Source: Bacteroidales bacterium (GTDB taxonomy: Bacteria > Bacteroidota > Bacteroidia > Bacteroidales > JAADGE01). From it: a stretch of 60,443 bases of DNA. The notes beneath the pieces were generated by a model. The model saw only the letters and a program-made list of their open reading frames with translations, did no database searches and was not told where the DNA came from. Within the stretch, counting starts at the first letter, position 1; every line of letters starts with the position of its first letter. The stretch covers positions 1-60,443 of the forward strand of contig JAIORQ010000018.1 in assembly GCA_021108035.1 (NCBI GenBank), given 5' to 3'. The position numbers and the translations under genes were made by a program. This document shows, one piece after another, positions 5,724 to 40,608 of the stretch.

Positions 5724-7010
5724 ATGCCGGAAACCAACAACATGAAAGAGGAATTCCTCCATTTTATCTGGAAAAACAAACTTTTTGATAAAAACAGTCT
5801 GTTTGATAATGCCGGTAATAAAATTAAAATTGTAGATACCGGGCTTCATAACTTTGATGCCGGACCGGATTTCTTTAATGCAAAAATTAAAATAAAAGAA
5901 ACAATATGGGCAGGAAATGTTGAAATTCATACAAAATCTTCAAATTGGGTAAAGCATAATCATCATAAAGATAAAGCTTATGATAATGTAATTTTACATC
6001 TTGTTTTTGAACATGATAAAGAAGTTTACAATACAAAAGGTGAACAAATACAAACTTGCGAATTGAAATTTGACAGTAAATATCTTGCTAATTATCACCA
6101 ACTTATATCATCTCAAAAAGATATTCCTTGCAATAATTATATAAACAAAACAGACAGTTTTACATTAAATTCTTGGTTAACAAATTTATTAATTGAACGT
6201 ATTGAACAAAAAACAACTTATGTAAAAAATATTCTGAAATTTACAAACAACAATTGGGAAGAAGCATTTTATATTGTATTAGCAAAAGCATTCGGATTTA
6301 AAGTTAATGCAGAGCCTTTTGAACTCACTGCAAAATCGTTACCTTCAATTATACTCGCAAAAAACAAAAACAATCTTTTTCAACTTGAAGCTTTACTTTT
6401 CGGCCAAGCCGGAATGTTAAACGGTTCTGAAACAGATGATGATTATTTTCTTTCTTTAAAAAAAGAATATGAATTCTTGAAAAACAAATATAAACTGAAA
6501 CCGATTGAAACTCATCTTTGGAAATTTTTACGTATAAGACCCGTTAATTTTCCGACTGTAAGAATATCTCAATTTGCTGCTTTGATTAACAAATCTTCAC
6601 ATCTTTTTTCAAAAATATTAGAAAGCAAAGATGTTAAAATCATCGAACAAATGTTTGATTTAAAAGCAAGTGAATATTGGAATACACATTATAATTTCGT
6701 TAAAATATCAAAAAAGAAAATAAAAACATTCGGAAAATCAGCTACAGAGAATATTATTATAAACACAGTGATTCCAATTATGTTTCTTTACGGGAAAGAA
6801 AAAGCAAACGAAGAAATCCGAGACAAAGCAATAAATTTTCTTGAAAACATTAAAGCCGAAAAAAACAATATTACAAAAAAATGGACATCAGCAGATATTG
6901 ACATAAAAAATGCCTACTTTTCGCAATCCTTAATTCAACTGTATAATGAATATTGTTTGAAAAAAAGATGTTTGAATTGCCGTATCGGAAATAAATACAT
7001 AAATGTTTAA
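5724..7010 (+). CDS. DUF2851 family protein
   Basis: 428-residue cytoplasmic protein of the DUF2851 family, recognised by EEFLHFIWKNKLFD at the N-terminus, DTGLHNFDAGPDFFNAKI (about residues 38-55) and WAGNVEIHTKSSNW (about 62-75), and by a C-terminal cysteine pair (CLKKRCLNC). The family is widespread in Bacteroidota with no assigned reaction; the conserved His/Asp/Glu core has suggested nuclease-like chemistry, but I cannot establish that here. An internal ATG at 5742 is a possible alternative start. The next gene (K+ channel) starts 8 bases before this gene ends, so the two are probably co-translated. Confidence 0.8.
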   Translation: MPETNNMKEEFLHFIWKNKLFDKNSLFDNAGNKIKIVDTGLHNFDAGPDFFNAKIKIKETIWAGNVEIHTKSSNWVKHNHHKDKAYDNVILHLVFEHDKEVYNTKGEQIQTCELKFDSKYLANYHQLISSQKDIPCNNYINKTDSFTLNSWLTNLLIERIEQKTTYVKNILKFTNNNWEEAFYIVLAKAFGFKVNAEPFELTAKSLPSIILAKNKNNLFQLEALLFGQAGMLNGSETDDDYFLSLKKEYEFLKNKYKLKPIETHLWKFLRIRPVNFPTVRISQFAALINKSSHLFSKILESKDVKIIEQMFDLKASEYWNTHYNFVKISKKKIKTFGKSATENIIINTVIPIMFLYGKEKANEEIRDKAINFLENIKAEKNNITKKWTSADIDIKNAYFSQSLIQLYNEYCLKKRCLNCRIGNKYINV

Positions 7011-8049
7011 AGAATTTCGTAATATATATATAGCATCAATTGCTCTCCTTGTTATTTTTTTAAGCGGAATATTCGGCTATAAAATACTTGAAGGATTCGA
7101 CTTCGTTGAAGCAGTATATATGACTGTTATTACAATTTCAACCGTTGGTTTTAAGGAAATTCATCCTTTATCAAAAGAAGGTATGATTTTTACGGGAGTA
7201 TTAATAATATTCAGTTTAGGATTTTTTGGTTATTTCATAACTTCGGTAACAAGACTGTTTATTGACGGAGAGTATAAAAAAATGGTTAAAACCTATTACA
7301 GAAACAAAAAAATAAAAAAATTGAAAAATCATGTTATAATATGCGGATTTGGCCGTAACGGAAGACAAGCAACAATAGAGTTGCTCAAAATCAATAAGAA
7401 CGTGATTGTTATTGATAACAACAAAGATATTCTTAATAAAAACATAAACGAAGAAATTGTTAAAAACAAGAACTTCACATTTGTTCGAGGAGATGCCTCT
7501 CATGAAGAAAGTTTGTTTGAAGCAAATATAAATAATGCAAAAGCATTAATTACAACACTGCCTAATGATGCAGAAAACCTTTTAATAATATTAACCTCAA
7601 GAGACATTAACTCTCGAATGACAATCATCTCCAGAGCATCCGATGAACATTCTTATTCAAAACTAAAACGTGCCGGAGCAGACAATGTAATTATGCCTGA
7701 TATTGTGGGAGGTTCAAGAATGGCAAAATTAGTTTCAAAGCCGGATACTATGGAATTTTTGGAAATGATTATGCTGAAGGAAGGTGTTGATGTAAATTTA
7801 GAAGAAATCCGCTGTGATGATTTAGCATCTTGTTTTGTTGACAGTACAATTTCGGATTTAGATATTCGGAAAAAAACCGGAGCAAATATTATCGGCTTAA
7901 AATTAGGAAACGGGGAATATTTGTTTAACCCGAGCAGCAAAATTAAATTGAAGCAAGAAGATAAACTTTTTGTTCTCGGAGCTGTAGAGCAAGTTAATAA
8001 ATTAAAAAAACTGCTGGAAAGCGGTCATTATTTTGATGAAACAGTCTAA
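7003..8049 (+). CDS. Two-TM potassium channel with RCK (TrkA-N/TrkA-C) domain
   Basis: 348 residues. One transmembrane helix (about 8-27), a pore loop with selectivity-filter-like TVGF at 47-50, and a second helix (about 61-82) form a minimal K+ channel half. This is followed by a cytoplasmic RCK domain beginning at VIICGFGRNG (111-120), a Rossmann nucleotide-binding motif, and a TrkA-C ligand domain at the C-terminus. The architecture matches MthK/Kch-type ligand-gated channels, which work as tetramers. The filter is TVGF rather than TVGYG, a common variant in this class that may relax K+ selectivity. The start overlaps the DUF2851 stop by 8 bases. An MITE-like element follows 18 bases after the stop. 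Confidence 0.85.
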   Translation: MFKEFRNIYIASIALLVIFLSGIFGYKILEGFDFVEAVYMTVITISTVGFKEIHPLSKEGMIFTGVLIIFSLGFFGYFITSVTRLFIDGEYKKMVKTYYRNKKIKKLKNHVIICGFGRNGRQATIELLKINKNVIVIDNNKDILNKNINEEIVKNKNFTFVRGDASHEESLFEANINNAKALITTLPNDAENLLIILTSRDINSRMTIISRASDEHSYSKLKRAGADNVIMPDIVGGSRMAKLVSKPDTMEFLEMIMLKEGVDVNLEEIRCDDLASCFVDSTISDLDIRKKTGANIIGLKLGNGEYLFNPSSKIKLKQEDKLFVLGAVEQVNKLKKLLESGHYFDETV

Positions 8050-8067
8050 GAAAAAAGTTATAAAGTT

Positions 8068-8211
8068 AAGACCACTCCAAAAAGTGTTTTAGCCACTAAA
8101 GCACAAAAACACAAAATTTCACTAAAACTAATATATTGATAATAACTGTTTTGTGAATTTTTGTGTCTTGGTGTTTTCGTGGCATTTTTTTTAGCTTTTC
8201 GGAGTGTACTC
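8068..8211. mobile_element. MITE-like palindromic element, family A copy 2
   Basis: 144-bp element with the same terminal repeat as the 5311-5440 copy (left AAGACCACTCCAAAAAGTGT, right reverse complement GAGTACACTCCGAAAAGCTA). It is flanked by a different 6-bp direct repeat, AAAGTT (8062-8067 and 8212-8217). The interior differs from copy 1: its arms are of the kind GCCACTAAAGCACAAAAACA / TTTGTGTCTTGGTGTTTTCG, a simple repeat often seen in Bacteroidota genomes. No coding capacity. It lies between the K+ channel stop and the convergent lipoprotein gene. Confidence 0.72.
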
Positions 8212-8263
8212 AAAGTTGAAAGCCTTTTGTAATCTGCCAATGTGCTTTAACGAAAGGTTGGGA

Positions 8264-8791
8264 TTATTCTTTCATTAGACATTTACACTTTTTCAATTCG
8301 TTATTTTCAATCAATTTATTTAAGTCAGATATTTCATTCTTGAATGTATACCTATTACCGCAATTATAAATTTCAACTAAAGGGTCTTTATCTGAAATCA
8401 TTAAAAACAACTCGTCCGGTAAAGGAGCCTTTTCTAATTTACTGTAATCTTCATATGTTATATTTAAAAAAGCTGCATTACTGTTTATTCCTCTGTTATC
8501 AAGCAAATATCCGGATTTAAGTTTTGTAGGATATGCTAATTCTCCTTTATAAAAAACATCTTTTGGATGCGGATATGATACAATTTTAGATTTATCCTCT
8601 GATAAAATTACAGGAACAAATTGATTATAATCTTTTTTTGTCTTGTAAATTATAGTCGGAGGACCTGCTTTAAAATTCAAAACGACTTTATCCTTATTCG
8701 TTTCAGTTTCTTTCATAGTTGTACTGTTTTTCTTTACTATGCAACATGCATTCAATATTAAAGCTGATAAAATAAATAGAAGTGATTTCAT
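8264..8791 (-). CDS. Small lipoprotein of unknown function
   Basis: 175 residues with a lipoprotein signal: a hydrophobic h-region then LILNAC, with the lipobox Cys at residue 16. The mature part is polar with no recognisable enzymatic motif. Paired cysteines occur near the C-terminus (YNCGN, KKCKC). It is probably anchored in the inner or outer membrane. I do not recognise the family; similar short lipoproteins are common in Bacteroidota. Confidence 0.6.
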   Translation of the reverse strand: MKSLLFILSALILNACCIVKKNSTTMKETETNKDKVVLNFKAGPPTIIYKTKKDYNQFVPVILSEDKSKIVSYPHPKDVFYKGELAYPTKLKSGYLLDNRGINSNAAFLNITYEDYSKLEKAPLPDELFLMISDKDPLVEIYNCGNRYTFKNEISDLNKLIENNELKKCKCLMKE

Positions 8792-8940
8792 ATAGCCTGT
8801 TTAATTATAATATTCATTTGAGTTTTTTCAGAATTGATATTTTTGTTTTTAGCTTTGCTGCTTCAAGTTATACTTTCTGTTTCAAAATTAAATAATATAT
8901 TTTAAAAATCATCAATTTAAAATAATTAATTTTATACTAA

Positions 8941-9100
8941 GGCTTTGTGAACAAATAACTTGACCGTTTAAGCTCGTTCTTTTGCACGCTAACTTCACTA
9001 AAAAGCCTCGCCGTAGCTAAGGCTATGACTGCGTTTTTTAGCTTTGTTATCGTACAAAATAACTTCGCTTATTCCAGTCAATTTATTTATTCGCAAAGCC
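8941..9100. mobile_element. Palindromic MITE-like element, family C
   Basis: 160-bp near-palindrome occupying most of the 338-base gap before miaA; the rest of that gap shows nothing else. Left end GGCTTTGTGAACAAATAACT, right end (reverse complement) GGCTTTGCGAATAAATAAAT, about 21 of 24 matching. The ends resemble the published IS903/IS5-family terminal repeat (GGCTTTGTTGAATAAAT). A 3-bp TAA lies on both sides (8938-8940, 9101-9103); this could be a TNA-type duplication but is weak evidence in AT-rich DNA. The central segment from about 8992 aligns with the core of the element at 5505-5705. Confidence 0.65.
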
Positions 9101-39900: not shown

Positions 39901-39951
39901 AGAAGTTATCATTTTATAAAAAAAGATAAATTTGTTTCAAATATAAAAGAA

Positions 39952-40019
39952 CGGAATTATAAGGTAATTGGGCATTATTATTTTTCGGAATTATAAGGTA
40001 ATTGGGCATTATTATTTTT
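39952..40019. repeat. Two perfect tandem copies of a 34-bp cassette-end sequence
   Basis: Units 39952-39985 and 39986-40019 are identical over 34 bases and include the 25-bp terminal repeat plus TATTATTTTT. The target duplication abuts the outer copy, so both copies lie inside the mobile cassette. Confidence 0.9.
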
Positions 40020-40049
40020 TATGCATAATATTTATTATTAGTGAGTTCA

Positions 40050-40520
40050 TTAATATACTCCGTCAAGAAGTTTCTCTGCTTCCGTTGGGCTTTTATCTAA
40101 TAATTCTATTACTATTTTTTTTACTTCATTTTGTTCGTTAATAAGATATTCTTTAAATTTACCGTCAGGAAGACGTTTGAAATATTCTTCATTGCTTTCA
40201 TCTGGTGCTTTATATGTTTCAATATTATCAAAATGTAATACAAAAAGATTTTTTGTTCTTAATGTGCTTATAATCTCTGTAACCCTTAACTGTTCCTTAA
40301 TTTTATATATTTTTGATAACAGATAGTACGCAAAAATAAAAATTGCAATAGCACTTAATATCTGAAATATCCAATACGACCAACTATTTATTTGTAATAT
40401 ATTTTCCATTTTATTTCCGTTATTTAATGATTGTGTAACTAAAATAACTAAAGCCCATATCGCCTCAACTCTTGTTAAAAATGTAATCAGTAAAGAACCT
40501 TTTATTTTAATATTTTTCAT
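40050..40520 (-). CDS. Two-helix membrane protein carried by the mobile cassette (unknown function)
   Basis: 156 residues. Two hydrophobic helices (about 8-28 and 48-70) are followed by a soluble C-terminal region of about 85 residues rich in Glu/Lys (EQLRVTEIISTLRTKNLFVL, then YFKRLPDGKFKEYL). No signal peptide cleavage site and no transposase, recombinase or enzyme motif. The topology is likely both termini in the cytoplasm. It is the only gene inside the inverted repeats, so it may be cargo. I do not recognise the family. Confidence 0.65.
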   Translation of the reverse strand: MKNIKIKGSLLITFLTRVEAIWALVILVTQSLNNGNKMENILQINSWSYWIFQILSAIAIFIFAYYLLSKIYKIKEQLRVTEIISTLRTKNLFVLHFDNIETYKAPDESNEEYFKRLPDGKFKEYLINEQNEVKKIVIELLDKSPTEAEKLLDGVY

Positions 40521-40608
40521 ACCTTTGGATTTTAAATTAAAACCTCTAATATAGGTATAAAATACTTAATGCCCAATTACCTTATAATTCCGTAAAAGAA
40601 TATAGAAA

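Follow-up and report, generated by a model that had tools for sequence, protein, structure and literature searches.

The window analysed here (a whole stretch of 60,443 nucleotides, contig JAIORQ010000018.1 of a Bacteroidales bacterium) carries between the genes rnhB and gpmI a 641-bp element (39952–40592) bounded by inverted ends, flanked by a short direct repeat and containing a single long ORF (Table 1). Its inverted arms (39951–39977 and 40567–40593) match perfectly over 27 nt; as the outermost base pair of these arms belongs to the duplicated target, the perfect ends of the element itself measure 26 bp (39952–39977 and 40567–40592). About 5e-9 perfect 27-bp inverted pairs would be expected in a 951-bp stretch with the base composition of the element, and the probability that the flanks agree by chance at 8/8 positions is about 1e-4. 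The sole long ORF is intact and encodes a predicted two-helix membrane protein, and the ORF list of the window element includes no transposase between 39952 and 40592. The initial annotation had described a transposase-less mobile cassette with perfect terminal inverted repeats, a perfect 8-bp flanking direct repeat and a single gene for a two-helix membrane protein. This description holds apart from the length of the repeats, given as 25 bp, and it did not mention that the left end is a perfect tandem duplication of 34 bp.

Table 1. Features of the element and of its target site in the window. C98, C97 and C52 are related copies in the same genome; G001 is a genome of the same genus.
Feature	Position	Strand	Evidence
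Left copy of the target duplication, TAAAAGAA	39944..39951		Identical to 40593-40600
Outer of the two tandem 34-bp copies at the left end (26-bp terminal inverted repeat and 8 further bp)	39952..39985		Direct repeat 100% identical, spacing 34; inverted relative to the right end
Left end, inner tandem copy (34 bp)	39986..40019		1 mismatch to the 27-base pattern, at the outermost base
ATGAAC, a possible relic of the start of the lost transposase gene; overlaps the membrane-gene stop codon (TAATG)	40045..40050	-	Transposase frames of C98, G001 and C97 begin with ATGAACAT at this position after the membrane gene
Membrane-protein gene (156 aa, two helices), the accessory gene of the two-gene parent IS	40050..40520	-	Intact ORF; full-length blastp match to the upstream gene of G001
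Membrane-gene leader, with the probable promoter, inside the element	40521..40566	-	Alignable with the corresponding stretch of C98, C97 outer copy, C52 and G001
Right terminal inverted repeat, 26 bp	40567..40592		Inverted match to the left end
Right copy of the target duplication, TAAAAGAA	40593..40600		Identical to 39944-39951

The insertion site was compared among relatives. The rnhB gene was detected in 17 of the 20 genomes of the genus and family, and gpmI was recognised on the same stretch at 10 of these 17 loci, the interval being unreadable in this way at the other 7. All ten readable loci hold between the two genes a homologue (46–60% identity) of the gene that follows rnhB in the closest sister genome, G013, and none of them contains an element end (with up to 5 mismatches). 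The ancestral synteny of the membrane gene between rnhB and gpmI, which the initial annotation had named as contradicting a cassette, is therefore ruled out in these ten loci. As to an empty site, both flanking genes of G013 are 94% identical to those of the window, its locus is split over two contigs and the exact arrangement rnhB-TAAAAGAA-gpmI was not found among the relatives, but the bases preceding gpmI in G013 match the right flank of the cassette and read into gpmI without any element. The gene present in all ten readable relatives is missing from the window genome at 39901–40608. As the relatives hold this other gene, the site has also been remodelled, and the perfect target duplication suggests that the cassette entered an rnhB-gpmI interval that would already have been shortened.

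When the genome itself was searched for the ends (up to 3 mismatches from the 27-base pattern), nine places were found, against none for the reversed control. One of them, C98 (L024, 3795–7573), is a full IS with near-identical ends and an 8-bp duplication, of the kind that the initial annotation had proposed to look for: it is a complete transposase-bearing element with the target duplication TTAATTAA on both sides and with 22/22 end bases matched, and thus shows the inverted repeats and 8-bp duplication of the IS1595 family. Its ends differ from that of the window element by 1 and 4 of 26 positions, with one mismatch in the outer 22 bases at each, and the right end of the window element is 87% identical to an end of C98 over about 91 bp. 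The 329-aa transposase matches NF033547 (E 5.8e-54), PF12762 (E 9.7e-32) and PF12760 (E 1.1e-8), which assigns it to the IS1595 family, and it has the DDE and zinc-ribbon domains of that family. A gene for a 170-aa two-helix membrane protein immediately precedes the transposase gene and shares 4 bp with it; after the transposase gene come two ORFs (102 and 97 aa) and a DNA methylase gene (PF01555, E 1.2e-45). IS1595 members are described as usually flanked by 8-bp duplications and as having a single transposase gene (PMC8101967), a wording that C98 does not fit, with its overlapping membrane gene and the further genes that follow. These extra genes do not exclude it from the family, since passenger genes are on record in IS1595 (PMC3129680, which cites Siguier 2009 for ISs carrying them). 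The methylase of C98 (L024, 3860–5341) has no recognised partner.

Other copies have lost the transposase. C97 (L023) has an outer copy (6394–8020, flanked by TATAATTA) that retains an intact membrane gene (157 aa), 37 codons from the start of the transposase and a methylase tail; the 3' part of the methylase is thus common to C97 and C98 (54% over 68 aa, E 1e-25), which indicates that both copies derive from related longer elements. Nested in it is an inner copy (7239–7919, flanked by TTTAAAAA), also transposase-less, whose ORFs encode 45 aa with one helix and 121 aa with two. C52 is a remnant of about 150 bp that resembles the right end of the window element (82% over 131 bp) and has lost most of a membrane gene, of which it keeps the first 22 codons. 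C25 is a second type of element, with a transposase that is 55% identical, the same gene order, the duplication TAACAATT and further ORFs, one of them a probable lipoprotein by eye. With its ends, its 8-bp duplication and further copies that have duplications of their own, the window element is structurally a mobile cassette, as initially proposed.

Some neighbours of these copies may be recorded here. The nested cassettes of C97 adjoin, at the contig end, a gene of which the C-terminal part is present and which matches the candidate defence family PDC-S06 (E 5.4e-97), and on the opposite side an AlbA_2/Schlafen-type gene (PF04326); these neighbours are located at 8010–9002 and 4847–6175 of L023. 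The C52 remnant (L025, 4316–4895) adjoins a YafQ-type toxin gene (PF15738, E 7.4e-23), preceded by a small ORF that may, from its position, encode the antitoxin.

The 27-base end is present in 2 of the 60 genomes searched, the one harbouring the window and G001. The latter carries a 1535-bp element, flanked by TTATATTT, that contains only a membrane gene and a transposase gene; another copy, at the edge of a contig, shows 0 mismatches over 125 bases and has a different flank. The membrane protein of the window element is 39% identical to that of G001 over its full length (blastp E 3e-35). Between the two genes, synonymous differences prevail over non-synonymous ones (pS 0.60, pN 0.35; chi-square p 5e-5), which indicates that the ORF of the window is a real protein gene, under a constraint that may predate the loss of the transposase. 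This codon-level constraint, the ends, the duplications, the further copies with other duplications and the absence from ten relatives with a readable interval leave practically no room for a chance ORF or an ancestral chromosomal gene that would belong to no mobile element.

Transposase searches gave hits in 6 of 393 genomes of the order (E <= 1e-60), in 3 of 395 genomes of the phylum (1e-70) and in 2 of 92 genomes of the G516 family, these counts including repeats of earlier genomes, and at 5 loci of the genome contig collection; plasmids gave no match to the transposase, and viral contigs gave neither a transposase relative nor the end pattern. In most of the relatives found, a small gene encoding hydrophobic helices lies directly upstream of the transposase gene on the same strand. 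Just the two genes are found between the ends in G349, G516 and L068 (duplications TTATTTTT, AAAAGTTT and TTGTTTTT, respectively), and the pair plus more in G314 (AAATTTTA) and G688 (GATAATAA). The pair also occurs in G378, G225, L069 and L070, with no convincing target duplication at these four loci. Among 14 pairs, the two genes overlap in 10 (by 4 bp in 7, by more in 3) and are separated by gaps of 2–26 bp in the other 4. L072, from Spirosoma, lacks the upstream gene and has only an antisense two-helix ORF downstream, no element ends being found at this locus; L071 is a truncated transposase fragment without membrane gene. In G378, a two-gene element of the same clade (L080, G378:C246) shares a 4.1-kb contig with several small ORFs judged by eye to be virion- or membrane-like. 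Three end-like sites of G067 (L118, L140 and L148) were left out of the analysis; at L148 (699–2884, G067:C98), an end-like CGGAATTATCAGTTAATTGG site precedes by about 80 bp a long ORF, restriction/methylase-like by eye, and could belong to a large cassette, the contig stopping inside the ORF, before any second end.

In a tree of 28 transposases, 12 (including those of L072, C98 and G001) form one clade with 100/100 support. An upstream membrane gene is found in 11 of these 12 rows (L072 being the sole exception), in 2 of the 5 nearest sister rows and in none of the 11 outgroup rows, whose loci span at most about 1500 bases per side. The trait requires a minimum of 3 changes on the tree, against a mean of 9.6 after shuffling, and Fisher's test of the clade against the other 16 rows gives p 5e-5, which is a guide only as the rows are related (L069 and L070 are near-duplicates within a single genome, and C98 and G001 are close). 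The tree omits G225 (broken transposase, membrane gene present) and L071, both in-clade, with which the clade count becomes 12/14. It also omits 11 of the 27 loci (L032, L098, L101, L105, L107, L109, L110, L112, L115, L116 and L117), which are short, broken or without a long enough match and in which no coupled hydrophobic gene was found. Among the sister rows, an 80-aa hydrophobic ORF located 97 bp upstream in L095, overlapping an antisense ORF, was left uncounted (counting it would give 3/5), and L096 and L097 have small non-membrane ORFs near the upstream position, so that two of the three sister rows without membrane gene hold other small ORFs there. Sister-element ends, where found (L097 and L099), begin CGCACTTATCC. 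The presence of a two-helix gene or of other small ORFs before the transposase gene in L096, L097, L099 and L100 suggests an exchangeable slot.

These data change the reading of the cargo. The initial annotation regarded it as an unrecognised gene of a possibly undescribed cassette family. By its position it is no random passenger but the counterpart of the gene that directly precedes, and usually overlaps, the transposase gene of this clade, and a deletion derivative of a two-gene IS is a better reading than a new cassette family. The selfish role, in immunity or regulation, that the initial annotation suggested for the cargo may still hold. That the parents keep a membrane-protein gene directly before the transposase gene is, provisionally, the new point.

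The membrane protein itself has few recognisable features besides its helices, which were called with Kyte-Doolittle windows (usual cut-off 1.6) rather than with a trained predictor. In the window protein, the hydrophobic segments span residues 10–28 and 51–69. In 14 of 16 proteins, the exceptions being those of L068 and G314, the two strongest helices start at residues 6–27 and 37–61 and are separated by a short loop; the first falls below the cut-off in 5 of the 16 (lowest value 0.96), and at this cut-off the proteins of G001, G516 and G688 show one helix only. Lysine and arginine account for 38 of 168 residues before the first helix, 31 of 315 in the loop (12 of these 31 coming from the long loop of L068) and 66 of 240 after the second helix over the 16 proteins, a distribution expected of a protein with both termini in the cytoplasm. 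A single-sequence model of the window protein, weak as a whole (pLDDT 69, pTM 0.36), has helices at 9–34 and 44–89, the second extending beyond the membrane segment; the model of the L069/L070 protein is weak too (pLDDT 41). No family matched the membrane gene above the cut-off in Pfam or NCBIfam, nor in PADLOC. The PDB sequence search gave no match for the window protein and one weak match (E 0.098) for that of L069, and the phage search with the window protein gave none. In PHROGs, the window protein weakly matches a holin family (E 0.003 over 45 residues). This match and the two helices would fit a small toxic or addictive holin-like protein that stabilises the element, but the match spans one helix only and is absent from the nine other proteins scanned, which makes such a role improbable.

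Most membrane proteins of the set share no sequence homology with one another, so that their grouping as one accessory family relies on their location and topology and on the few pairs that are homologous. Although the transposases of C98 and G001 are 85% identical, their membrane proteins have no detectable homology (blastp E 0.35). The transposases of L069 and L070 are 98% identical (dS 0.50, dN/dS 0.02); in their membrane proteins, dS is 1.35 over the first 65 residues (dN/dS 0.35) and falls to 0.15 at residues 136–200 and 0.08 at 201–269, a mosaic suggesting that the membrane half was exchanged through recombination and is less constrained. As judged from these comparisons, the predicted topology is kept, while the sequence of the membrane protein changes, by divergence or swapping, much faster than that of the transposase. 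The gene could accordingly be swappable cargo with a host or defence role, lodged between the end and the transposase gene. Besides the swapping, the mixed sister group argues for a passenger, as do the further genes carried by C98 and C25, and passenger genes located between the left end and the transposase gene are described in IS231 (PMC2266710). However, what occupies the slot in this clade is nearly always a gene for one kind of protein, oriented alike and adjoining or overlapping the transposase gene, even in elements devoid of any other gene (G001, G349, G516 and L068). Such near-constant presence, the position and the coupling argue for a role in transposition, and the passenger reading is a tentative one, although of real weight.

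Ends, duplications, further copies, gene order and a tie to one transposase clade are all found, and the window element is, for its anatomy, very likely a non-autonomous derivative of a two-gene IS1595 element, which would have arisen by internal deletion and would have been moved in trans. Its history can be viewed as follows. The ends of the parent IS would begin with CGGA; the membrane gene would be read inward from one of them and would usually overlap the transposase gene that follows. The transposase gene would have been lost through an internal deletion that spared the leader, the membrane gene and both ends; the tandem 34-bp repeat of the left end sits on the deletion side. The six bases ATGAAC at the stop of the membrane gene are suggestive of a relic of the transposase start. 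A transposase supplied in trans, for which C98 would be the obvious donor, would then have inserted the cassette between rnhB and gpmI, generating the 8-bp duplication. The membrane protein, a predicted hairpin with both ends and a helical part in the cytoplasm, might be made in step with the transposase and restrain or position it, and the protein retained in the cassette might in turn affect other copies in trans. Regulation of transposition from the membrane would be an attractive candidate function.

A more specific proposal is that the product would be a membrane-anchored, trans-acting repressor or immunity factor, which the cassette keeps because it limits the transposition of related elements. 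Two different deletions that removed the transposase (in the window and in the outer copy of C97) left the membrane gene without internal stops, and full elements keep it tightly coupled to the transposase gene; but the C52 remnant lost it, and full elements that carry it have evidently still moved. Such a repressor is a tentative reading, slightly less likely than a passenger. Beyond passenger, repressor and toxin, what likelihood is left falls to other roles in transposition. The most far-reaching possibility would be that this IS1595 clade has a permanent, rapidly changing protein partner, anchored in the membrane, which tethers the transposase there and governs the time and place of its action, cassettes with only the partner being mobile trans-repressors of their parents; this proposal is unlikely.

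The element combines features of several known systems. Small upstream genes coupled to the transposase gene are known from IS1 (InsA) and IS911 (OrfA), where they encode soluble, DNA-binding regulators; the position and the coupling are similar here, but the protein is a predicted membrane hairpin. Mobile insertion cassettes (MICs), exemplified by MIC231 of Bacillus cereus, likewise consist of IS ends around a non-transposase gene, and a cognate full-length IS, here C98, occurs in the same genome. Derivatives of the MIC type can be activated by the cognate transposase (PMC3129680). Unlike in MICs, whose gene is a foreign passenger, the gene of the window element is the own accessory gene of the parent IS. 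MITEs are short and non-coding, to which the C52 remnant corresponds better than the window element, with its intact ORF under codon-level constraint. The parents share with the IS1595 family the zinc-ribbon and DDE domains, the inverted ends and the 8-bp duplications, and differ from the family as presented in PMC8101967 by the second, upstream gene; unlike members of that family, the window copy has no transposase of its own. The modular ISs of the IS231 type (IS4 family) also have a variable gene between the left end and the transposase gene (PMC2266710), but their transposase is of another family, and the slot of the present clade nearly always holds one protein type. Among the matches listed in the literature search, which lay outside most subscription papers and the ISfinder entries, no title or abstract start mentions a membrane gene coupled to an IS1595 transposase, and the available text of PMC12561309, which concerns another IS1595 element, adds nothing on such a gene. 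The novelty of the pairing is therefore provisional.

ISs count as the simplest mobile elements, whose transposases are regarded as soluble, like any helper they may have. A clade that couples its transposase gene to a membrane-protein gene would imply a possible link between transposition and the membrane, and the present elements would offer a testable system, with two genes in 1.5 kb and natural derivatives devoid of transposase. For the annotation of cassettes, it matters that an apparent cargo can be the parent's own accessory gene.
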